Positions 5,752 to 20,385 of a DNA stretch of 20,385 bases are shown piece by piece. Both the position numbers and the translations under genes were made by a program. Below the pieces are notes generated by a model. The model did no database searches. It was not told the DNA's origin and saw only the letters and a list, made by a program, of their open reading frames with translations. Source of the DNA: a virus; IMG/VR virus record IMGVR_UViG_3300046006_003536, positions 1-20,385 of that record; one strand, given 5' to 3'. Position 1 is the stretch's first letter. Each line of letters starts with the position of its first letter.

Positions 5752-6075
5752 ATGGTAACAGTATCAGAAACCGCAGCTAAAAAATTAACTTCTCTTATTG
5801 AAGAAAGTGGGTTTGCAACTCCATTTGTAAGAGTAGCAGTTAAAGGTGGTGGATGTAGTGGATTATCATATGACCTATCATTTGATACCGAACAACAACC
5901 CTCCGATACATTAGCCGAAGATAAAGGAGTAAAAATATTAGTAGATAATAAATCTCTATTGTATTTATTTGGTACTGAATTAGAGTTTTCCGATGGATTA
6001 AACGGAAAAGGATTTCAGTTTATAAATCCTAATGCATCCCGTACTTGTGGGTGTGGTGAATCATTTGCATTATAA
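5752..6075 (+). CDS. iscA: A-type Fe-S carrier, IscA/ErpA/HesB family
   Basis: A-type carriers take Fe-S clusters from a scaffold such as IscU and deliver them to apo-proteins. The 107-residue length matches the family. The three cluster or iron ligands are intact: C35 in GGGCSGLSY, and C99 and C101 in TCGCGESF. Other family features are the N-terminal VSETAAKKL helix and the LYLFG-ELEF segment (70-79). It completes a scaffold/carrier pair with iscU at 1385 although the sugar cassette separates them by about 4 kb. ErpA and IscA cannot be told apart here, and the symbol is a family label. The start ATG follows an A/T-rich leader with no Shine-Dalgarno site. Confidence 0.94.
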   Translation: MVTVSETAAKKLTSLIEESGFATPFVRVAVKGGGCSGLSYDLSFDTEQQPSDTLAEDKGVKILVDNKSLLYLFGTELEFSDGLNGKGFQFINPNASRTCGCGESFAL

Positions 6076-6138: not shown

Positions 6139-6756
6139 ATGATAAAAATAGTAACAGACACATCGGCTCTAAAAAAGTCAATTCCTACTACAACATTTAC
6201 AAAAGAAGAACAAGATTTAGCAACAGCTGCATTATTAACTGCAGTAACCGAACACAAAGGTTTAGGTATGAGTGCAAATCAAATAGGATTAAATAAACGA
6301 ATTTGTGTAATCAATGTTAGAGAAGAACCTTTGGTATTGGTTAATCCTACAATCGTAGAAGAAAGTGAAGAAAAGATAATGTATTTTGAAGGATGTTTAT
6401 CTTTACCTAAAACAATGAAAAAACCAATTAAGACAGTTCGTTCTTATGGTGTTAAAGTAAAAGCAGATAACTTTCCAGATGTATTAGATTTTTCTACAAA
6501 AGAAAGAAAACACGAAGATATCAATGCATTATTTAGTGATGTAGATTTATTAGAATCAGTTTGTGTTCAACATGAAATTGACCATTTGAATGGATTAACA
6601 ATTAGAGATAGACAATATACTGAAACCGTTAGATTAACTGCATTTGCTAAGTTAGGTAGAAACGAAAGATTCATCTTAAAGAAAGGTGATGAAACTCTTT
6701 CAGTTAAGAAAAAGAATTTATCAACGTATTTAGAACAAGGATGGGAGGTAGCATAA
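6139..6756 (+). CDS. def: Peptide deformylase with C-terminal extension
   Basis: Peptide deformylase removes the formyl group from the initiator methionine of new proteins. All three motifs are present: GLGMSANQIG (41-50, catalytic Q48), EGCLS (84-88, metal ligand C86) and QHEIDH (144-149, ligands H145 and H149, catalytic E146). At 205 residues it is longer than most phage versions. There are 61 residues from E84 to H145, roughly 15-20 more than usual, and after about residue 165 comes an extra region ending NLSTYLEQGWEVA. Deformylases are known auxiliary genes of marine phages, thought to speed host or phage protein maturation during infection. The active-site metal is usually ferrous iron. 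The gene after it begins two bases past the stop. Confidence 0.93.
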   Translation: MIKIVTDTSALKKSIPTTTFTKEEQDLATAALLTAVTEHKGLGMSANQIGLNKRICVINVREEPLVLVNPTIVEESEEKIMYFEGCLSLPKTMKKPIKTVRSYGVKVKADNFPDVLDFSTKERKHEDINALFSDVDLLESVCVQHEIDHLNGLTIRDRQYTETVRLTAFAKLGRNERFILKKGDETLSVKKKNLSTYLEQGWEVA

Positions 6757-7018: not shown

Positions 7019-7739
7019 AAAGAAAAAAGATACCAGATACTTCACCGAACAAACCGAAGCAGCTATTATCGCGTACAACAAATCGGAAGATAATAGAGAA
7101 CGAAATAAATTATATACCGAACACATCCACTATTCATTTTATAAGTTATCCGAAAACGTATTAAACACTTGGGGATTTACTTATTTTGATGATGATAAAG
7201 AAGATATCAAACATGAAGTAGTTTCTTTCTTATTAGAGAAGATACATAAATTTGAAGAAGGTAAGGGTAAAGCATTTAGTTATTTTACAATCGCAGCTCG
7301 TAACTATCTTATCTTAAATAACAATTCTAACTACAAAAGATTTAAAGCAACATCACAATTAAGTGCAATGCCGGTTAGTTGGGATTTAGAAAATGATTTC
7401 AAACAAACATCACATAACGAAGAATTTAAAACTTTCAATGATAGAATGCTACAATATTGGGATTTAAATCTTAATAAAGAATTTTCTAAAAAAAGAGATA
7501 TACAAATCGCAGATGCTGTTTTAGAATTATTTAGAAGAGCAGAATTTATTGAATCATTTAATAAAAAATCATTATACTTATTGGTGAGAGAAATGACGGG
7601 TTATAAAACACACTATATAACTAAGGTTGTTTCAAAGATGAAAGAAACCCAAATGAAGTTATACTATCAATTCTTAGATGAAGGTGATATAACACAAGAA
7701 TCAAAAGACCCGTTTTGGAAACGAACAATTACAAGATGA
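7011..7739 (+). CDS. gp55: gp55-like late-transcription sigma factor
   Basis: T4 gp55 and its relatives are small sigma factors that direct host RNA polymerase to phage late promoters. This 242-residue protein has the conserved region-2-like core DKEDIKHEVVSFLLEKIHKF (62-81), followed by GKGKAFSYFTIAARNYL (84-100), which matches the phage sigma pattern of 'KFDE-KGKAFNYFT'. A helix-turn-helix-like stretch lies near residues 187-211 (LYLLVREMTGYKTHYITKVV). Length is above the 185 residues of T4 gp55. No obvious copy of the T4 C-terminal clamp-binding epitope is seen. The gene overlaps its upstream neighbour by eight bases and its stop overlaps the ATG of the carbamoyltransferase (ATGA). It should control the structural genes downstream. 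Confidence 0.82.
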   Translation: MGRKKKDTRYFTEQTEAAIIAYNKSEDNRERNKLYTEHIHYSFYKLSENVLNTWGFTYFDDDKEDIKHEVVSFLLEKIHKFEEGKGKAFSYFTIAARNYLILNNNSNYKRFKATSQLSAMPVSWDLENDFKQTSHNEEFKTFNDRMLQYWDLNLNKEFSKKRDIQIADAVLELFRRAEFIESFNKKSLYLLVREMTGYKTHYITKVVSKMKETQMKLYYQFLDEGDITQESKDPFWKRTITR

Positions 7740-9430
7740 GAATATTAGGAATATCAGCATTCTACCACGACTCAGCAGCTGCATTAATTGTAGATGGCAA
7801 AGTTGTATCGGCACAAGAAGAAGAACGATTTACAGGTATAAAGCATGACCAACGATTTCCCATCAATTCAATTAATTGGATTCTAAAACAAAACAAATTA
7901 AAGATTAACCAAATAGATAAAATTGTTTGGTACGAAGACCCTAAGAAAAAATACGAAAGATTTAAAGAACAATGGTTTAGGTATTTTCCTAAAACAATTG
8001 GTTTAACTAAGAAACTTATATTTTGGAGAAAGAATAATAACATTGAAGATATTATTCGTACACAATTAGGATATAAAGGTTCAATAGAATATGTAGAACA
8101 TCACATATCACATTTAGCATATTCATTCTATACATCACCATTTGAAAACGCACATTTATTTTCAGTAGATGGTGTTGGTGAAAACGAAACCGCAATATTA
8201 GGATTAGGATTAAAAGGTAGATACATACAACCATTAGAGAGAACGTACTTTCCACATTCATTAGGATTATTATATGCAAGTATTACTGCATTCTTAGGAT
8301 TCAAACCAAATAGTGGTGAATACAAAGTAATGGGATTAGTGGCGTATGGTAATCAAAAAGATTTGTATAGAAAACAATTTGAAAAGATTGCTAAACTAAA
8401 TGGTAATACATTAGAATTAGATATGAAATATTTCTCATATCATTATTCAGAGAAAGGTATGTTTACTTCTAAACTAGCAGAACTATTTAATGTAGCACCG
8501 AGAACGCCTGAAAGTGAGTTAGACCCTGTTTATATGGATATTGCATTTTCATTGCAAGCACATTACGAAAGATTATTTTTTCAAATGTTAAATAACTTTT
8601 ATAAACATTATCCACAAGACAATTTGTGTTTGAGTGGTGGGTGTGCATATAATGGATTAGCAAATGGTAAGATAACAATAGAAACTTCTTATAAGAATGT
8701 ATATGTACCACCAGCCCCATCTGATGCAGGTTCTGCTATTGGGTGTGCATTGTATGTATATTACAAAACATCAACTTCTAAAAGAGTGGATAATTCAAAT
8801 CCATTTTTAGGACCTTCGTATGGTGCAGCTGATTTTATATCTGCAATTGCTAATTTAGTTCCACATGATAAAGTAAAAAGATTTGAAAACTATAATCCAT
8901 TAATTGAAAAGGTAGCTGGTTTAATTAATGATGGTGCAATTATAGGATGGTTTCAAGATGGTAGTGAATTTGGACAAAGAGCATTAGGACATCGTTCTAT
9001 ATTAGCCAATCCAACAATCAAAGATATTAAACCAAAGGTAAATAGAGTAATCAAAAAGAGAGAAGGATTTAGACCTTTCGCACCAATGGTTACATCCGAT
9101 GATGCAAATAAATACTTTGAGATGTTAGGACAAGAAGTTCCGTATATGAATCAAGTATTTAAAGTTAAAGATAAATTTATTGCGGGATTACCATCTATTA
9201 CTCACGCCGATGAAACAGCTAGAGTTCAGACAGTTCGTTCTACTTTCAATCCATATATTTTTACACTACTTAAAAAGTTTGAAAAGTTAAGTGGTTATCC
9301 TATCTTACTCAATACCTCATTCAATCTTAGAGGTCAAACAATGGTATTAGATCCTGAAACTGCAATAAAAACCTTTTATTCATGTGAAATGGATTATTTA
9401 GTGTTAGGTAATTATTTAATATCAAAATAA
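7736..9430 (+). CDS. Carbamoyltransferase, NodU/TobZ family
   Basis: These enzymes make carbamoyl-adenylate from carbamoyl phosphate and ATP, then move the carbamoyl group to a hydroxyl, usually on a sugar. The Kae1-like N-terminal domain starts MRILGISAFYHDSAAAL; H122 and H126 (HHISH), D145 (SVDGVGE) and D330 (APSDAG) are placed as the metal and nucleotide site in TobZ. The C-terminal YrdC-like domain follows after about residue 355, with GWFQDGSEFGQRALGHRS (404-421) and KKREGFRPFAP (440-450). The 564-residue length is close to that of TobZ (about 570). I chose the ATG at 7736, which overlaps the sigma stop; a TTG at 7715 would add seven residues and lacks support. Carbamoylation of the product of the sugar cassette is the attractive inference; the acceptor is unproven. 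Confidence 0.92.
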   Translation: MRILGISAFYHDSAAALIVDGKVVSAQEEERFTGIKHDQRFPINSINWILKQNKLKINQIDKIVWYEDPKKKYERFKEQWFRYFPKTIGLTKKLIFWRKNNNIEDIIRTQLGYKGSIEYVEHHISHLAYSFYTSPFENAHLFSVDGVGENETAILGLGLKGRYIQPLERTYFPHSLGLLYASITAFLGFKPNSGEYKVMGLVAYGNQKDLYRKQFEKIAKLNGNTLELDMKYFSYHYSEKGMFTSKLAELFNVAPRTPESELDPVYMDIAFSLQAHYERLFFQMLNNFYKHYPQDNLCLSGGCAYNGLANGKITIETSYKNVYVPPAPSDAGSAIGCALYVYYKTSTSKRVDNSNPFLGPSYGAADFISAIANLVPHDKVKRFENYNPLIEKVAGLINDGAIIGWFQDGSEFGQRALGHRSILANPTIKDIKPKVNRVIKKREGFRPFAPMVTSDDANKYFEMLGQEVPYMNQVFKVKDKFIAGLPSITHADETARVQTVRSTFNPYIFTLLKKFEKLSGYPILLNTSFNLRGQTMVLDPETAIKTFYSCEMDYLVLGNYLISK

Positions 9431-9493: not shown

Positions 9494-12319
9494 ATGGCAG
9501 GATTAACCGTAGACGAATTATCAGCATCCTTTGATGCTAGATTAGATAACAATTCACAAAATTTATATTTATGGAGTGGTTCATTTCAAACAAAATTGGA
9601 TGGACTGGGTATAGCAGGTATCAATGCATTTTCAGGAGCAATCAGCACTTCTCTTACTAATTTAAGTTCAAGTGTAAGTGCAACTTCAACATCTTTTAAT
9701 GCAAGAATTAATAGTAGTAATTCAAATCAAACAACATTATCGGCATCAGTAAGTGATGATGTAAGTAATTTAAATTCCATTATAGATGGTTTAAATGATT
9801 TTAGTGCATCTATAACTTCTTCATTTAATTCTTTAAGTGCATCGGTTAGTTCAACTAGTGCATCTTTTAGTACAAGAATTAATACGTTAAGATTGGATGC
9901 AGGTGGAGTTAGTACCGCAGATTTTAACGCACTTACACAATCATTAAGTGGTGTTATAAGTAGTAGTGCACAATTAAATGGTGCAAGTATTACAAATTTA
10001 AGTATTACTAATTTAACAACTATTAATGAAACAAGTTCAGTAATATACTCAAGTGGTTCAAACCAATTTGGTGATAGTTTAGCTGATAATCATATTTTAA
10101 GTGGTAGTGTAAAAATAGTTGGTAGTGGTAGTTTGAATGGTTATACAATATTAACTTCAAATGATACCGCATCTTTTTTAACTTCACTTAACGGAGCATT
10201 AAGTTCTTCGGCACAAGTGTTAGATGGTAGTAACATATTTAGTAGTTCAGCACAATTGCCGGTAGGTTTAGTATCTGGTTCATCTCAATTACCTGTTGGA
10301 TTAGTTAGTGCATCTTCACAAGTTTTGAATGGTAGTAACATATTTAGTAGTTCAGCACAATTGCCGGCAGGTTTAGTTAGTGCTAGTTCACAAATATTAG
10401 ATGGTAGTGGATTATTTAGTGCATCTGCACAATTACCAACCGGTTTAGTTAGTGCAAGTTCTCAAATTGAAGCATTAGGATTTATAACTTCTTCTACAAG
10501 TATTGCTACCGGTAGTTTTGCAACAACTGGTTCAAATGTATTTCGTGGAGACCAAATACTAACCGGTTCATTATATTTAAGTTCTAGTTATTACGCAATA
10601 AGTTCACCGGCAGGACAAGCAATTTCACTTGGTGAGGCATCAATATATACTAAAAAAGATGGATATAATAATGGTTTTATAATTATAGAAGGTCAACAGA
10701 CAAGATTATTCGCAAATAGTGTTGTGTTGGAATCAACCTCGGATAATGGTGTAGAAGTAATTGGTAATACAATTATAACAGGTTCATTGACGGTTAGTTC
10801 ATCAGCAGCAGTTGATGTAAATGTAATTGGTAAGATGAATGTTACTGGTGATGTAATCATAACAGGTTCAACTTTATCCGTTATGAAAAGTACGGATTCT
10901 GACCCATTTTTTACCGTAGATGTAAATTCAAAAAGATTAGCATTAGTACAAGGAAATGGTGAGATTCCAGGTGAATTTTATTTAGCATTATCCGGTTCTT
11001 CTGCATTTTCTCCTAGACCAGAAAAAACACTTTTATACGGAGCTAGAGGGTTTATACTTAGAGCAGGACAACCTGGTGCTCAACATGAAATGAGTGGTTC
11101 ACTTTTAATGAGTGGTTCTATTGTACCAGCTGTGGGAGCAGGACAATCTACATCATCATTTAGTTTAGGTTCGGCAACAAATGCATGGAAAGACCTTTGG
11201 GTATCAAATGGTACTATCAATTTCTTAGGTGGTGATGGTACACCACAAGGTACACTATCATCAACCGCAACAGGACTTCAATTAGGTAGTTCTACTATAT
11301 CAGGTTCAATGGTAGTAACCGGTTCATTAACGATTGTAAATGCATTAGGTAATGGGCAAAAAGTTTTAGGTGCAGATGGTATATTGGGTGCTAATTATAT
11401 TGCAGGTAACTCTGGATATTTAGGTGTAGAAAATGGTTTAACTAGAAGTGTTCAACCTGTAATTTCTTCATACTTTACTAATTATTTCACAACAATAAAT
11501 AGTTCACCATACAAATGGGAAATGTCGGATTTAGGTATCGGTACATCATATAGTTGGAATTATGGTAGATTTACTCCATCACCGGCTATTAGAGTAGGAC
11601 ACAATACGGATTTATCTTTTTACACTGGAAGTTCAAGTAACATTTATGTACCTGGATTTTCAACTATTATAAGCAGTAACAATAACTTATCCGGAATGGA
11701 AAGAAATGAAGCTGTTGCATATAGTAATGGAATAAATCACGTGTTAGCAGTAACTGGTAGTTTATTGTCGAGAGATAATACTACATTAGGTACAAAGGCA
11801 ACCGATTTAACATATATAAGAGGAGAGGCAACCATCTCCGGTTCATTAGTAGTGACGGGTTCATTGACAGTTAGTTCATCAGCCGCAGTTGATGTAAATG
11901 TAATTGGTAAGATGAATGTTACTGGTTCATTAGAAGTATCTTCATCTAATACTTTAACTTGGTATACTCCAAAACTTGATATCTACAACCCAGACCCAAG
12001 TGATGTTTGTTCATTCCAATTAAATAAATATAGTACCTCATTAGGTGGTTATTATAACTTTACTATTAGAAATAATGGTGATTCAGCGAATGGAGTTTGG
12101 CTTAGTAATGGTAATCAACCTATTAAAATAACAACAGATGATGTTGTTACATTGGGTGCTAATAATGGTGCAACCGGTAGTGTAAAGGTAATTGGTTCAA
12201 TGACATTAGCAGCACAAACCGTACCAACTGGTACTCTAGTAGCAGGTATGATGTACTTTGATAGTGGTACTAATGAATTTAAAGGATACAATGGTACAAC
12301 TTGGGTAGTATTAGGATAA
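9494..12319 (+). CDS. Repetitive Ser-rich phage fibre/adhesin protein (941 aa)
   Basis: This is the largest gene in the window. Residues 1-160 are Ser-rich helices with regular spacing (SASFDARLDN, SASVSSTSASFSTRI), which suggests a trimeric coiled coil. Residues about 242-325 hold tandem units of the form DGSNIFSSSAQLPxGLVSASSQ. From about 340 onward, beta-rich sequence is punctuated by many TGSLxV motifs, including a 23-residue block present twice (430-452 and 789-811). The end, MYFDSGTNEFKGYNGTTWVVLG, is the kind seen at the tips of phage tail fibres. No peptidase or chaperone domain is visible. It stands alone between a promoter-like leader and a strong terminator, directly before the baseplate operon, so a virion fibre or receptor-contact role is likely. 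A head-decoration fibre is the alternative. Confidence 0.75.
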   Translation: MAGLTVDELSASFDARLDNNSQNLYLWSGSFQTKLDGLGIAGINAFSGAISTSLTNLSSSVSATSTSFNARINSSNSNQTTLSASVSDDVSNLNSIIDGLNDFSASITSSFNSLSASVSSTSASFSTRINTLRLDAGGVSTADFNALTQSLSGVISSSAQLNGASITNLSITNLTTINETSSVIYSSGSNQFGDSLADNHILSGSVKIVGSGSLNGYTILTSNDTASFLTSLNGALSSSAQVLDGSNIFSSSAQLPVGLVSGSSQLPVGLVSASSQVLNGSNIFSSSAQLPAGLVSASSQILDGSGLFSASAQLPTGLVSASSQIEALGFITSSTSIATGSFATTGSNVFRGDQILTGSLYLSSSYYAISSPAGQAISLGEASIYTKKDGYNNGFIIIEGQQTRLFANSVVLESTSDNGVEVIGNTIITGSLTVSSSAAVDVNVIGKMNVTGDVIITGSTLSVMKSTDSDPFFTVDVNSKRLALVQGNGEIPGEFYLALSGSSAFSPRPEKTLLYGARGFILRAGQPGAQHEMSGSLLMSGSIVPAVGAGQSTSSFSLGSATNAWKDLWVSNGTINFLGGDGTPQGTLSSTATGLQLGSSTISGSMVVTGSLTIVNALGNGQKVLGADGILGANYIAGNSGYLGVENGLTRSVQPVISSYFTNYFTTINSSPYKWEMSDLGIGTSYSWNYGRFTPSPAIRVGHNTDLSFYTGSSSNIYVPGFSTIISSNNNLSGMERNEAVAYSNGINHVLAVTGSLLSRDNTTLGTKATDLTYIRGEATISGSLVVTGSLTVSSSAAVDVNVIGKMNVTGSLEVSSSNTLTWYTPKLDIYNPDPSDVCSFQLNKYSTSLGGYYNFTIRNNGDSANGVWLSNGNQPIKITTDDVVTLGANNGATGSVKVIGSMTLAAQTVPTGTLVAGMMYFDSGTNEFKGYNGTTWVVLG
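10217..10468 (+). repeat. Tandem DGS-SSAQLP-GLVS-SSQ protein repeats
   Basis: Starting at V242, three units follow the pattern [VI]L[DN]GSxxFSxSAQLPxGLVSxSSQ. The first carries an extra internal LPVGLVSASSQ half-unit, so it is 35 residues against 24 for the others. At DNA level, 39 bases at 10224-10262 recur exactly at 10329-10367, 105 bases (35 codons) away and in the same frame. Confidence 0.85.
10781..10849 (+). repeat. 69-bp dispersed repeat, copy 1
   Basis: These 69 bases encode GSLTVSSSAAVDVNVIGK and five further residues (430-452). They match 11858-11926 at 67 of 69 positions by eye. The two mismatches are silent, so the peptide is identical. The separation is 1077 bases, an exact 359 codons. 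Confidence 0.9.
11858..11926 (+). repeat. 69-bp dispersed repeat, copy 2
   Basis: This is the second copy of the block at 10781-10849. It encodes residues 789-811 of the fibre protein in the same frame. Both copies follow an ATITGS/VVTGS-type strand motif and are followed by different sequence, so the block looks like a shared module boundary. Confidence 0.9.
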
Positions 12320-15379: not shown

Positions 15380-15805
15380 TTGGCATTTGAATTAGAAAAA
15401 TCGTTTGTAATTGATACACAAGATAAAAGTGTTGGAGTGTCATTGCCTATTGGTGCTGGCAACAATGGATATTTTGGTGTAAACTATACTACGAAAAATC
15501 AAATCAAAAGTAATTTAAAAAATTTAATATTAACAGAACCCGGTGAGAGGTTAAGTAATCCTAAATTTGGAACTCCATTAAGACAATTCATATTTGAACC
15601 ATACGAAGATGGTGATTTTGAAAGTAGAATTGAAGATGTTATAACAACCGCAATATCAACGTATTTACCATATGTTAGTATCGAATCTATTATATTTGAA
15701 AATAACAATGATTCAAAAGATAAACATTTGGTAAATTTAGAAGTAAATTATTCAATAAACTTTTCAGCAATACCCACAACTGATACATTAACAATTTCAT
15801 TATAA
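15380..15805 (+). CDS. gp25: Baseplate wedge protein, gp25-like, TTG start
   Basis: gp25 proteins sit in the inner baseplate wedge and prime tail sheath assembly; relatives are found in R-type pyocins and type VI secretion baseplates. The 141-residue length fits (T4 gp25 has 132). The hallmark segment is LILTEPGERLSNPKFGTPLRQFIFEPYE (49-76), with GER at 55-57 and FG at 63-64. The start is TTG at 15380. The only other in-frame possibilities before a TAA at 15365-15367 are codons such as ATT. An AAGGGG site (15366-15371) is ideally placed eight bases before the TTG, inside the end of the previous gene. It is followed one base later by the gp6-like gene, its physical partner in the wedge. Confidence 0.92.
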   Translation: MAFELEKSFVIDTQDKSVGVSLPIGAGNNGYFGVNYTTKNQIKSNLKNLILTEPGERLSNPKFGTPLRQFIFEPYEDGDFESRIEDVITTAISTYLPYVSIESIIFENNNDSKDKHLVNLEVNYSINFSAIPTTDTLTISL

Positions 15806-15806
15806 A

Positions 15807-17675
15807 ATGGCACTTAATCCAATAGATAAAAGCTGGTCTACAAACAAAAAAGACGTTAAATATGTGAATAGAGATTTCACATCTTTAAAGCAAGCATTGG
15901 TTGAATTTACTAAAACATATTTTCCAAATACCAATTCTGATTTTAGTGATGCATCTCCTGGTATGATGTTTATGGAACAAGCCGCATATGTGGGTGATGT
16001 TCTTTCATATTATACCGATGCTCAATTAAAAGAATCGTTTATTAATGTGGCAAGTAATTATTCAAATATTCTTATACACGCTCAAAACTTTGGATATGTT
16101 CCTAAAATAAGTAGACCTGCGGTAACAACATTGACGGTATATCAAACCGTTCCATCTATATTAAATGCAACTGGAACCGGTACATCTGAGCCTGATTTTA
16201 ATTATTGTGTAAAGATAAAAGAAGGAATGGAAGTTAAATCAGAATCCAATTCTAATATAATATTTACTACATTAGATATGGTAGATTTTACCAATCCTAT
16301 CAATAGAACGGTATCGGTATTGACTCAAGCTAACGGAGCACCACAATTGTATTTATTAACAAAAACAGTTCAGGCTATTAGTGCAGCGGTAGTAACAATA
16401 ACAAATGATTTAGGAAGTTCATTTAAACCAAATCCTACAATTAATATTACAGATTCTAATTTTATAAAAATTATATCAGTAGTAGATGAATCAAATAATT
16501 CATATTACGAAGTTCCATATTTGGCACAAGAAATGATTTATATAAAAGAAGCGAATGCTTCGATATATGACCAAACATTGGCATCGGGTAGTGTTGATAC
16601 ACCGTATAATTTAAAATTAGTTAAAACAAATAAAAGGTTTACAACTAGAATAACAGATGTAGATAATGTTCAATTAAGATTCGGCGCGGCAAGTGAAACT
16701 ACTGCAGATGAAATGATTGTACCAAATACTAAAAACGTAGGATTAGGATTAAATAATTCAATTAGTAGATTAGAACAATCATTTGACCCTTCTAATTTTT
16801 TAAAAACATCTACATATGGAATTGCACCTACCGGTGAAGTTACCATTAAATATTTAGCGGGTGGTGGTATTAGTTCAAATGTTGTTTCAAATGATTTAAG
16901 AAAAATTGTTTCAATGGAATTTGATGAAGATTTATTAACATTTAATTCAACTACATCACCATTATATCAATCATCCAAAGCATCAATTGCAGTGGATAAT
17001 TTAATACCTGCTACTGGTGGTAGAGGTATTGAAACATTAGATGAAATAAGAGAAAATTCAATTGCAAACTACGCATCGCAAAATAGAGCAGTAACTAAAC
17101 AAGATTACGAAATTAGAGCATTATCAATGGATGCTTCATTTGGTAGTATTGCCAAAGTATATGTGGAGCAGGATTCCCAAAATAACCCATTTGCAATCAA
17201 TATGTACACACTTGGATATAATTCTAATGGAAACCTTACCCAACTAAATACAGCAACTAAAAACAACCTTAAAACCTATTTAAATGAGTATAGGTTAATT
17301 ACAGATGCTATAAATTTATTAGATGGTTATATTATTAACATTGGGGTAAACTTTGAAATAACAACATTTTCAAATTATAATAAAAGAGAAGTTGTATTAA
17401 ATTGTATTCAATCAATAACAAACTATTTTAATATCTACAATAGAAAAATTAATCAACCAATTAATTTGGGTGAGTTAGAATTAGAATTAGCAAATGTAAA
17501 TGGTGTAGCAACAGTTCCAAAATTAGAAATTTACAATATATGCGATGATACACATTCTCACAATGAATATGATATTAAAGCAGCAACAAAGAATAAAATT
17601 GTTTATCCATCATTAGACCCTTCTATTTTTGAATTGAAGTTTCCTAATACTGATATTAAAGGGAGAGCATTATAA
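15807..17675 (+). CDS. gp6: Baseplate wedge protein, gp6-like (baseplate J family)
   Basis: gp6 forms the ring that holds the baseplate wedges together. The 622-residue length is near the 660 of T4 gp6. The conserved N-terminal block is clear: NRDFTSLKQALVEF (21-34), then DFSDASPGMMFMEQAAYVGD and VLSYYTDAQLKESF through about residue 78, and GYVPK (96-100). The core seen in all baseplate J-like proteins follows near residues 411-458, with ENSIANYASQNRAVTKQDYE and SIAKVYVEQ. The C-terminal third (about 490-590) carries the alpha/beta domain expected for gp6. It starts one base after gp25 and overlaps the next gene by one base. No truncation or missing core motif is seen. Confidence 0.93.
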   Translation: MALNPIDKSWSTNKKDVKYVNRDFTSLKQALVEFTKTYFPNTNSDFSDASPGMMFMEQAAYVGDVLSYYTDAQLKESFINVASNYSNILIHAQNFGYVPKISRPAVTTLTVYQTVPSILNATGTGTSEPDFNYCVKIKEGMEVKSESNSNIIFTTLDMVDFTNPINRTVSVLTQANGAPQLYLLTKTVQAISAAVVTITNDLGSSFKPNPTINITDSNFIKIISVVDESNNSYYEVPYLAQEMIYIKEANASIYDQTLASGSVDTPYNLKLVKTNKRFTTRITDVDNVQLRFGAASETTADEMIVPNTKNVGLGLNNSISRLEQSFDPSNFLKTSTYGIAPTGEVTIKYLAGGGISSNVVSNDLRKIVSMEFDEDLLTFNSTTSPLYQSSKASIAVDNLIPATGGRGIETLDEIRENSIANYASQNRAVTKQDYEIRALSMDASFGSIAKVYVEQDSQNNPFAINMYTLGYNSNGNLTQLNTATKNNLKTYLNEYRLITDAINLLDGYIINIGVNFEITTFSNYNKREVVLNCIQSITNYFNIYNRKINQPINLGELELELANVNGVATVPKLEIYNICDDTHSHNEYDIKAATKNKIVYPSLDPSIFELKFPNTDIKGRAL

Positions 17676-18787
17676 TGATATTATTTTATACAGCATCACA
17701 AGATGCAACTATATACTTACAACAACCTTACCAAAATACCGGTATAGATGAAATGTTGGAATTATCAAAAGTATACTATGGTGATACACAGGATATGAGT
17801 AGAGTCTTAATTCAATTCGATACTACGGAAATATCTAAAAGTATAGCAAATGGTACAATACCAAGTGGTTCATTTACTGCATCATTACAATTAAAGATAA
17901 CTAAGGCAGATGAGATTGCCGCTAGATTTAATATAGAAGCATATCCAATTTCTCAAAGTTGGGAGAATGGTACTGGTACTCGTTTTGATAATATTACAAC
18001 CAATGGTGTAACTTGGTATTATAAAAATGGTGATGATACATCTACTATTTGGAATAATACATATGTAGCAGGACAAGGTGCAAGTTTTAATCCATTTACA
18101 ACCGGGTCTCAGACAGGACTTGGTGGCACATGGTTTACATCATCGGTAGCATCACAATCATTTCAGTACACAATAGAAGATATTAATTTAGATGTTACTT
18201 CATTTGTTAAAAGATGGAATAGTGGTAGTATAACAAACAATGGCATCATACTTAAATTTCCTACCGATAAAGAAAATGATTCAGTTGATTATGGTAGTAT
18301 TAAAATGTTCTCAAAAGAAACTAATACAATTTATCAACCTAAATTAGTTATAACTTATTTAGAAACGGATGTAGTTAGTGGAAGTTTAATAAACATTACC
18401 GATTTTATTAATAGTAGTAGTTATGATGTTTCGTATAGATGCTATTCACCAAATTTAAAAACCTCATATCAAGAAGGTCAAAAAGTAACTCTTAAAATTG
18501 ATGCAAGAGAATTATATCCAATCAAACAATTTAATTCTACATTTGTATATCAAGTTAAATACTACTTACCATCAACCACATATTATAGTGTAATTGATAC
18601 TTTAACAAAAGAAACAATCATAGGATATTCGGAAGCAAGTAAAGTTATAAAAGGTGAATTTAATAGTTTAATAAAATTAAATTTCCAAAATTGGTCGGTT
18701 GGTAGAAATTATACATTATTAGTAAAATCAATTACTAATGATAATGAAGAAATTTTTGAAATAGGTACATTTGATATTTACAAATAA
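17675..18787 (+). CDS. Baseplate-operon protein with DNRLRE/CBM96-like domain
   Basis: The 370-residue protein starts ILFYTASQDATIYLQQPYQN, followed by SRVLIQFD (42-49), a series of beta strands, AYPISQSWENGTG (89-101), DVTSFVKRWNSG (173-184) and NNGIILKF (188-195). This order is that of the DNRLRE family: a 'D-TI' opening, an SR-LIQFD strand, W-E-GTG, 'DVT-FVKRW' and 'NNGI-LK'. DNRLRE domains are extracellular beta-sandwiches, some of which bind polysaccharide (CBM96). The last 140 residues (about 232-370) are a separate beta-rich part, perhaps the virion attachment. There is no signal peptide, as expected for a virion protein. It occupies the place after gp6 where T4 has gp7, which it does not resemble. 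A role in contacting host surface glycan or in wedge structure is inferred. Confidence 0.68.
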   Translation: MILFYTASQDATIYLQQPYQNTGIDEMLELSKVYYGDTQDMSRVLIQFDTTEISKSIANGTIPSGSFTASLQLKITKADEIAARFNIEAYPISQSWENGTGTRFDNITTNGVTWYYKNGDDTSTIWNNTYVAGQGASFNPFTTGSQTGLGGTWFTSSVASQSFQYTIEDINLDVTSFVKRWNSGSITNNGIILKFPTDKENDSVDYGSIKMFSKETNTIYQPKLVITYLETDVVSGSLINITDFINSSSYDVSYRCYSPNLKTSYQEGQKVTLKIDARELYPIKQFNSTFVYQVKYYLPSTTYYSVIDTLTKETIIGYSEASKVIKGEFNSLIKLNFQNWSVGRNYTLLVKSITNDNEEIFEIGTFDIYK

Positions 18788-19812
18788 TGGCAATAGAAAA
18801 AAAATATATTACGTTAAGTGATTTAGATGATAATCAAAGTGTATCAACTAAATTATATGTAGACCAATATAATCAAACTGAATTAGAAAAAGCAGTAGAT
18901 ATAACGGTTACGGAATTAATAAATGCATTGCCTGATGTTAATTTGGATTTAGTACCTAAACCTGTGTACGATGCAGAAGTATCACATTCTCAACAATTAG
19001 AATTAGATATAACTAAATTAGAATTACAAATTGCAGATTTAACAGCAAGAGTACAGGCATTAACATCAGATAGTAGTTCTTTGTATATATCAAATGATAA
19101 TTTAAGAGTTACTAATGCAAAATTAGAAAATACAGTTGCATCCGTTCAACAAACAACATTAGAGTTAAGAACTAATTTAACAACATCATTAACAAAAGCA
19201 TTAAATGAAGCAACCGAAAGAACTGCATTAGAAGCTGAGAATAATGGATTGAATGCACAAAAGAATGCATTGATTAAACAAATCGATACATTAAATAATT
19301 TATTAGCCCAAGCAAATGCAAGTTTACAAGTTGCAGCTCAACAATTAAGTGCAAAAGCACAGGCAGTAGCAGCGGGTGGTGTTTCAACGGGTGAATTATC
19401 CACAATTGTTTGGGAAAAAGGTGACCCTTCAAAAAATGGAAGTTTGGGATATGCACTTGATTTGAATTTAGTTGCAAAGGGTGCTAAGGTAGAAGGACCA
19501 CCACAATACGCAGCCGCGTGGAGTAGTAATTATGTTGATATAGTAGCAGGTCCAAAGGATATAACTGCAACAATATCTCAAACCTTTTTTACAATAGAAT
19601 CTCCACTTAGTTTAAAAGCAAACGAAACAAAACGAATTACATTTGATAAACCCATTCAAAGTAGAGTGCCTAGTGGAACAAGAGGTTGGACCGGGTTAGG
19701 GAGGTCACAAAGAGATTATGAAGAAGTATTAAAAATTACAGTAAAGGATATTGACCCGGCTGGTAAATCGGAAGATAAAAATTGGAAAATAAAAGTACAC
19801 TCATACGAATAA
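18787..19812 (+). CDS. Coiled-coil structural protein with C-terminal beta domain (341 aa)
   Basis: I do not recognise a named family. Residues about 30-60 hold short segments around LINALPDVNLDLVP. Residues 62-192 form a long coiled coil (SQQLELDITKLELQIADL, ENTVASVQQTTLELRTNL, LIKQIDTLNNLLAQANASL). After a Gly linker (AAGGVSTG), residues about 205-341 are beta-rich with many Trp and Gly (TRGWTGLGRSQRDYEE, DKNWKIKVHSYE). An N-terminal anchor, trimeric stalk and C-terminal beta tip would suit a short fibre or wedge pin. It overlaps its upstream neighbour by one base and is followed six bases later by another structural-type gene. Confidence 0.7.
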   Translation: MAIEKKYITLSDLDDNQSVSTKLYVDQYNQTELEKAVDITVTELINALPDVNLDLVPKPVYDAEVSHSQQLELDITKLELQIADLTARVQALTSDSSSLYISNDNLRVTNAKLENTVASVQQTTLELRTNLTTSLTKALNEATERTALEAENNGLNAQKNALIKQIDTLNNLLAQANASLQVAAQQLSAKAQAVAAGGVSTGELSTIVWEKGDPSKNGSLGYALDLNLVAKGAKVEGPPQYAAAWSSNYVDIVAGPKDITATISQTFFTIESPLSLKANETKRITFDKPIQSRVPSGTRGWTGLGRSQRDYEEVLKITVKDIDPAGKSEDKNWKIKVHSYE

Positions 19813-19818
19813 TAAATT

Positions 19819-20385
19819 ATGGCAATAAAAGATTTTAAAAATATTGAAAACATTAATCTTAATTTGGATTCAACTGCACAATTAGTTGATTCAAAAGATT
19901 TAACTATATTCAAAACCGGAGCTAAGAATATTACTGATTTCGGAATGTCTAAAAATGATGTTATCGAATTTAGAGTATATGATATTTCAAATAATTTATT
20001 ACAACAAACAAATGGTATTAGTGTAAGGTATATTCATAAAGATGATTTACCAAAATATCTTAAAAGTGATATCGATACAATAACACAAGAAAAAATATTT
20101 GAAATTGATGTTGAAAAATTAGTTAGAGAAGCCGGTTATGGTAATGGTGAATTTAAAGTTTCATTTAATTTCTTAAAAAATTATGTAGGAAACGAAGATA
20201 AAAAACAAAGAGTTTGGATACATGAAGTTTCACCATCTCGTTCAGAAATAAGAGTGATGCCATTATTAGGTACAGATACGTTTTTAAATAATAAAATATC
20301 AAATAGATACAACGGATTTTTAAATAAAGCAAATGAATTACGTGGAGTTATTTCTATTATAGAAAGAGCATTAGATTCAATTCTC
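19819..20385 (+). CDS. Structural-type protein, 3' end outside the window (partial)
   Basis: An ATG at 19819, six bases after the previous stop, opens a frame of 189 codons with no stop before the window ends. Visible sequence includes IEFRVYDISNNLLQQTN, VRYIHKDDLPKYL, LVREAGYGNGEFKVSFNFLKNYVG and the segment WIHEVSPSRSEIRVMPL (about 131-147). The 'Y-NG-Y-V-FNF ... I-EISPSR-EIR' pattern recurs in large virion proteins of uncultured marine phages, in my recollection without known function. Its place in the baseplate operon argues for a tail or baseplate component, perhaps filling the role of gp7 or gp8. It follows the A-rich leader AATAAATT with no Shine-Dalgarno site. Confidence 0.8.
   Translation, partial: MAIKDFKNIENINLNLDSTAQLVDSKDLTIFKTGAKNITDFGMSKNDVIEFRVYDISNNLLQQTNGISVRYIHKDDLPKYLKSDIDTITQEKIFEIDVEKLVREAGYGNGEFKVSFNFLKNYVGNEDKKQRVWIHEVSPSRSEIRVMPLLGTDTFLNNKISNRYNGFLNKANELRGVISIIERALDSIL

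Follow-up and report, generated by a model that had tools for sequence, protein, structure and literature searches.

The stretch of DNA analysed here (the window) is a 20,385-base IMG/VR virus record, IMGVR_UViG_3300046006_003536. Near its end, immediately after the gene of a gp6-like baseplate wedge protein, it carries a gene for a protein of 370 amino acids (aa) with a DNRLRE domain, for which no close homologue seen offers a function. The parts of this region are the following (CBM, carbohydrate-binding module; Ig, immunoglobulin; ORF, open reading frame; AF2, AlphaFold2; pLDDT, predicted local distance difference test):

15380..15805, plus strand: gp25-like baseplate wedge protein (PF04965 above cut-off)
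15807..17675, plus strand: gp6-like baseplate wedge protein (phrog_219; TIGR02243 below cut-off)
17675..18787, plus strand: protein of 370 aa with a DNRLRE domain, in the baseplate operon (ORF, DNRLRE_dom profile, position after gp6)
17675..18358, plus strand: predicted DNRLRE/CBM96-type beta-sandwich, residues 1-228 (profile, profile-profile comparison, AF2 model, structure alignment)
17714..17782, plus strand: conserved segment, residues 14-36, aligned with CBM96 groove lysines, with E26 and E29 at K22 and K25
17960..18052, plus strand: conserved segment, residues 96-126, mostly with pLDDT below 50 in the lone monomer
18068..18100, plus strand: variable loop, residues 132-142, with long inserts in some relatives
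18275..18340, plus strand: conserved segment, residues 201-222, with the family hallmark F-S-K-E...P-K-L
18422..18784, plus strand: predicted C-terminal Ig/macroglobulin/SKICH-like beta-sandwich, about residues 250-370 (structure alignment)
18787..19812, plus strand: coiled-coil-rich protein, a less conserved neighbour (weak coiled-coil matches)
19819..20385, plus strand: first part of a gene that runs past the window end; relatives of it match the N-terminal region of a gpI/gp7-like candidate described below

The gp25 protein is recognised by PF04965 (1.8e-12) and phrog_261 (3e-16), and gp6 by phrog_219 (5.3e-18). The ATG of the DNRLRE gene overlaps the gp6 stop (TAATG), and the ATG of the next gene overlaps the stop of the DNRLRE gene in the same way (TAATG).

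The DNRLRE ancestry of the domain is well supported by sequence comparison. The NCBIfam profile DNRLRE_dom (NF033679) matches residues 10-227 over profile positions 2-164 (E 1.9e-8), with 34.6 bits against a curated cut-off of 34. The margin of the window protein's own score is thin, but the evidence at family level is not marginal. In alignment A2, which includes the window protein, 55/56 sequences match DNRLRE_dom at E<=0.1 (best 8.8e-14). When the phage domain profile was compared by hhalign with a profile of a small DNRLRE set, one profile pair and not a database search, the probability was 97.9 and E 3.7e-13 over query columns 6-227. Therefore, the match exceeds chance. Exactly one DNRLRE_dom match, above cut-off, is also present in each of eight virus records picked for holding the gene. 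Pfam CBM96 (PF24517) gives no match to the window protein at E<=1, although 5/56 members of A2 match it at E<=0.1 (best 2.1e-5); the disaggregatase repeat PF06848 is found at E<=0.1 in 16/56 (best 1.9e-4). Searches of the window protein against Pfam and PHROGs returned nothing above cut-off, and sequence searches of the PDB with alignments A1 and A2 or with single members returned chance-level matches.

The predicted structure agrees with this assignment. The AF2 model, made from 56 viral-contig sequences (the window among them, database phages left out), has a pLDDT of 78.5 and a predicted template modelling score of 0.76. Residues 1-229 align best with 8wab, a chondroitin-sulfate-binding DNRLRE module (Z 16.2, 169 residues, root mean square deviation 2.9), as would be expected of the two-sheet DNRLRE beta-sandwich, and then with 7vbo, the founder of CBM96 (Z 13.0). 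The next matches, at Z about 10, are the pro-BMP9 and pro-TGF-beta prodomains and chains of two Bacteroidota BAM complexes. Residues from about 250 to 370 give Z 7.0-8.9 to macroglobulin, SKICH and Ig folds, an arrangement that is common. Stretches with pLDDT below 50 are 19-25, 99-113, 115-122, 124-130 and 147-149; low confidence thus dominates only one conserved segment, 96-126, with 19-25 also low. No solved phage baseplate chain is among the matches listed (50 + 50 structure rows), which proves nothing, and the phage fibre 8hre is present. The first-pass annotation had read the motif order of residues 1-230 as that of a DNRLRE/CBM96-like beta-sandwich; profile match and predicted fold bear this out.

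The position of the gene is nearly constant. Among loci found through the DNRLRE protein itself, gp6 lies directly upstream in 102 of 104 rows (these include the window, its re-cut version L001 and, twice, Mel-JY01), and the other two loci, L008 and L017, begin too near the gene to show gp6. Since loci chosen in this way are circular as evidence, they were reselected by gp6 alone. Taking the best 80 matches per scan gave 234 loci, some contigs occurring twice or also among the DNRLRE-selected loci; 27 had less than 450 nt after gp6 or no ORF, and 207 were testable. If the longest ORF that begins no more than 160 nt from the gp6 stop is taken as the next gene, it is the DNRLRE protein (match at E<1e-3) in 205/207, a figure that describes this gp6 lineage because the gp6 queries come from phages having the gene. 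As to the exceptions, L210 has the DNRLRE protein one gene later, and L219, which ends 754 nt past gp6, shows an unrelated short ORF there and no DNRLRE protein. The distance from the gp6 stop to the first listed start is 1 nt in 65 of the 205 loci, -1 in 45 and 2 in 19. A gp25 homologue precedes gp6 in all 178 loci with enough upstream sequence, so that linkage to both gp6 and gp25 is constant, as a wedge subunit would require. The first-pass placement of the gene after gp6 is upheld by these counts, which cover related baseplates as the annotation had suggested.

The database phages carrying the gene are Microcystis phage Mel-JY01, the Flavobacterium phages immuto (four records) and LR756508, an uncultured phage of 484 kb; the recorded hosts of these six records include Flavobacterium and Microcystis. 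In all six database records with a gp6 match spanning 80% or more of the query, the coordinates place the gene just after gp6, and the three database regions inspected directly show the same. PA5oct, Atu_ph07 and GAP32, which have only a distant gp6, carry a giant protein after it instead; the parts of these giants that were scanned (2129, 1939 and 2280 residues) have no NCBIfam match at E<=0.05. The literature search found no paper joining DNRLRE with a baseplate, and none on Mel-JY01. Bacteroidota jumbo phages with gp25 and gp6 have been described, the term DNRLRE being absent from the available portion of the text (PMC12619734), and an Aeromonas phage ORF18 carries the DNRLRE name, but, from the part of its source available, in another gene setting.

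The DNRLRE protein is about as conserved as gp25. Median pairwise identities over 143 loci, in which gp25 was found by homology, are 0.455 for gp6, 0.337 for the DNRLRE protein, 0.309 for gp25 and 0.164 for the next gene. With the window as query, the medians are 46.7 for gp6 (95 loci), 45.4 for the DNRLRE protein (95), 38.8 for gp25 (86) and 31.0 for the coiled-coil gene (the 43 loci where it was detected). Measured against gp6 and gp25, neither the rapid divergence nor the patchy presence expected of a receptor-binding tail adhesin was found. At the gp6/DNRLRE junction, near 17.6 kb, the nucleotide identity shared with L006 and L010 rises abruptly from about 70% to about 90%. The gp25-gp6 block of the window lineage (15380-17675) is only 50-59% identical to that of relatives whose DNRLRE protein is 81-94% identical, probably an allelic block exchange beside a conserved gene; gp6 has 622 aa in the window and 671 aa in many of those relatives.

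Invariant residues concentrate, by alignment, in the segments that carry the sugar groove of CBM96. Of 46 residues invariant in the 56 sequences, 31 fall in segments 14-36, 96-126 and 201-222 (13/23, 8/31 and 10/22, respectively), which make up 76 of 370 residues (hypergeometric p 9e-14, for segments drawn after seeing the data). In a non-redundant, more diverse set of 90 members of 330-460 residues, the positions kept in at least 90% include D10, N21, G23, D25, E29, R43, W96, G99, W114, W126, T216, T218 and P222. The alginate residues of TM6-N4 (7VBO) are given, in the portion of the source available, as Lys10, Lys22, Lys25, Lys27, Lys31, Arg36 and Tyr159 (PMC9971899), and the 7VBO segment was numbered by these named residues. 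K22 and K25 align with E26 and E29, both invariant in 56/56; among the 90 diverse members, position 29 is E in 86 and position 26 is E in 74. K27 aligns with Ser/Gly31, and R36 with residue 42, which is S in 36/56 and A in 14/56, while residue 43 beside that column is R in 46/56 and H in 10/56. K10 falls in an alignment gap, and K31 and Y159 lie outside the mapped residues. As the columns of K22, K25, K27 and R36 are changed, the alginate site appears not to be kept at the mapped positions.

Two loops accept additional sequence. Among 182 of the 205 DNRLRE matches, those of at least 330 residues, 11 have 294-323 extra residues between positions 128 and 148, and 10 have 49-128 extra residues between 29 and 44. 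Three of six insert pieces scanned show weak, sub-cut-off matches to the GOLD family PF01105, and two of these three also weakly match a galactose-binding-like family. One relative (L374:7925-9946) encodes a DNRLRE protein of 674 aa with an insert of about 300 residues that resembles, by eye, two beta-rich repeats. Loops with room for additional domains have to be unobstructed, so the protein probably lies at the surface there.

The DNRLRE gene stays while a fibre-like gene of the same phages comes and goes. The latter (9494-12319, 941 residues) falls by BLAST into a group with immuto proteins that carry tail fibre and tail spike annotations; its product is serine-rich and fibre-like. Of 101 loci, L005 and L013 alone contain matches to it. 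The genes flanking its position are 22-40 bp apart in 10/13 relatives and 600-607 bp in the other 3; all 13 relatives with both flanks lack a match to the fibre-like gene and have the DNRLRE gene. Further downstream, relatives encode a large protein of 1265-1728 aa (for instance L006:11469-16652) with a conserved W-R-R-x-x-x-N-N-L-P-Y-L-x-K-H-K-G segment. In Mel-JY01 and immuto the N-terminal region of this large protein matches what is a gene of its own in the window lineage. The large protein could possibly be a gpI/gp7-like wedge protein. Tail_P2_I matches it weakly in 4/26 members (best E 0.03), a PDB sequence search with its profile gave chance-level matches, and the AF2 model of its core (26 viral-contig sequences) is poor, with pLDDT 46. 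Because it combines a conserved segment and weak Tail_P2_I matches with a poor model, this candidate is a lead only.

Some other genes of the window are also of note. The phage contig carries iron-sulfur cluster genes at 1385-1795, 1814-2122 and 5752-6075; the group holds an IscU (TIGR01999, 216.7 bits against a cut-off of 192.4), a ferredoxin-like protein called by eye and an IscA/SufA-type protein (TIGR00049, 117.8 bits against 58.8). A peptide-deformylase-like protein of 205 aa is encoded at 6139-6756 (89 bits, under the TIGR00079 cut-off of 103.95). The NodU-type carbamoyltransferase-like protein at 7715-9430 (152.8 bits, under the curated cut-off of 1000) adjoins the tail genes and is present in the 13 relatives having both flanks.

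Several known systems can be compared with this protein. It shares with the DNRLRE family (NF033679, including 8WAB) the whole domain, by profile, profile-profile and structural match, and the motifs N-x-G, R...L-x-F-D, W...T/S-W and F-x-S-K/R-E...P-x-L. It differs from it in the lack, by eye, of an export signal, and in its long 96-150 segment, its Ig-like domain and its place in a baseplate operon. With CBM96 it shares the predicted fold but apparently not the groove chemistry, as the glutamates and the altered R36 column described above indicate. The same fold is also used within a large machine: in the Flavobacterium BAM complex, BamH is described, in the available part of the report, as a fixed subunit with this fold (PMC12611786). 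A chain of that complex, 9n2d_C, which we take to be BamH, aligns with the AF2 model at Z 10.3. However, BamH is a host outer-membrane lipoprotein with another partner. The wedge protein 3 of the Herelleviridae phage Vp4 baseplate, Gp119, is a further case of CBM-type folds in a myophage wedge protein; those folds are of the CBM16 and xylan-binding types, lie inside the wedge protein and, in the portion of the source available, are not listed for the Deep-Blue counterpart (PMC11406892), whereas the DNRLRE gene is separate and hardly ever missing from the relatives sampled. DNRLRE domains do occur in other phages, namely the Brevibacillus phages SecTim467 (2.3e-51) and Jenst (a weak tblastn match only), but in SecTim467 the domain lies inside a protein of 1569 residues and not in a 370-residue gene after gp6.

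We consider it on balance probable that the DNRLRE protein is a stoichiometric, wedge-associated subunit whose former ligand edge is now a protein dock. What points to a fixed wedge part is that the protein is closely linked, moderately conserved and has its invariant residues concentrated in former groove segments. In this T4-like contractile baseplate, an exapted DNRLRE (CBM96-fold) domain would be combined with an Ig-like domain in one subunit. Made together with gp6 from abutting or overlapping genes, this subunit would enter the virion in a set copy number and dock on gp6, on the wedge proteins that come after it, or on both; the docking surface would be the sandwich edge where CBM96 has its sugar groove. 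Loop 132-142, which is variable, would face outwards, and further domains would be added there in some relatives.

Several points weigh against this proposal. The assignment to the wedge is drawn from genes and from a single-chain model, and the low pLDDT in 99-130 and 19-25 may reflect the alignment rather than a missing partner. The groove was mapped by sequence alignment, and the three segments are presumed to share one face. The loss of alginate lysines says nothing on neutral sugars, and the conserved W, Y, N and Q residues would suit sugar binding too, as loop inserts suit an adhesive role. Divergence was judged against gp6, gp25 and the next gene, with no receptor-binding protein among the yardsticks. 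In correlation of distances with gp6 (Spearman), the DNRLRE protein reaches 0.53, compared to 0.72 for gp25 and 0.47 for the next gene. Moreover, 12 relatives have a DNRLRE protein 81-94% identical to that of the window and a gp6 only 54-59% identical (gp25 50-54%, where present in the sequence; L009 and L020 are closer in gp6, with 82 and 70%), so that the DNRLRE protein tolerates different gp6 alleles.

The main rival, which we regard as doubtful, is that the DNRLRE domain sits on the baseplate rim and uses its groove to attach the phage to a conserved glycan of the envelope or capsule during the rearrangement of fibres and wedges. In its favour, both top-ranking structural matches bind glycans. 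Of 16 DNRLRE proteins sampled from Bacteroidota, many appear by eye to be exported or anchored to lipid, and the long inserts in one loop, some with pieces weakly similar to GOLD, would fit such a function; the Vp4 wedge protein Gp119, with its CBM folds, binds cells according to the available part of its description (PMC11406892). The first-pass annotation had gone further, suggesting a captured host adhesin domain that holds surface glycan during landing. The DNRLRE ancestry stands, but the best sampled Bacteroidota host protein (L133) scores only 20 bits, and no donor is named; the proteins of L135 and L136 are similar in layout yet score below 2 bits, and a plasmid search with the protein of L057 gave no match at E<=1. 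The adhesin role itself is weakened by the near-constant pairing with gp6, the gp25-like conservation, the persistence of the gene where the fibre-like gene is missing and the acidic residues at two mapped CBM96 lysines. A hybrid of both ideas is distinctly unlikely: a fixed wedge subunit of a T4-like lineage would sense a conserved envelope glycan, its acidic and invariant groove binding only once the baseplate lies flat on the surface and thereby helping to release contraction, as a landing trigger independent of fibres.

In T4, connector-type roles are played by gp9, gp10 and gp11. A comparable adaptor would tie the wedge to tail fibres or to a fibre network at the periphery, and either the Ig-like domain or the 132-142 loop would be its contact with the fibres. 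Two beta-sandwich domains, one variable loop and a constant place between gp6 and the downstream tail genes would be consistent with this. However, a DNRLRE protein of nearly unchanged sequence (99% identical in L005, 94% in L006) is present whether or not the phage also has a relative of the fibre-like gene, which makes this role unlikely. Functional replacement of gp7 as third core wedge protein is very improbable. The gene does stand directly after gp6, where, as had been pointed out, T4 has the unrelated gp7, but the gp6-gp7 core is a helical bundle and the DNRLRE protein, of 370 aa, is predicted to be mostly beta. Searches in Pfam, PHROGs and PDB gave no gp7 match to it. A replacement is not needed either if the large downstream protein is gpI/gp7-like, for which the evidence is weak.

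CBM folds in tail tips were already known as adhesion add-ons. Here a CBM-type fold accompanies gp6 almost without exception in the roughly two hundred loci sampled, and the chemistry of its groove has changed. The DNRLRE protein gives a common unannotated baseplate gene a provisional name, and it offers a clear test case of whether injection machines recruit sugar-binding domains as structural components.

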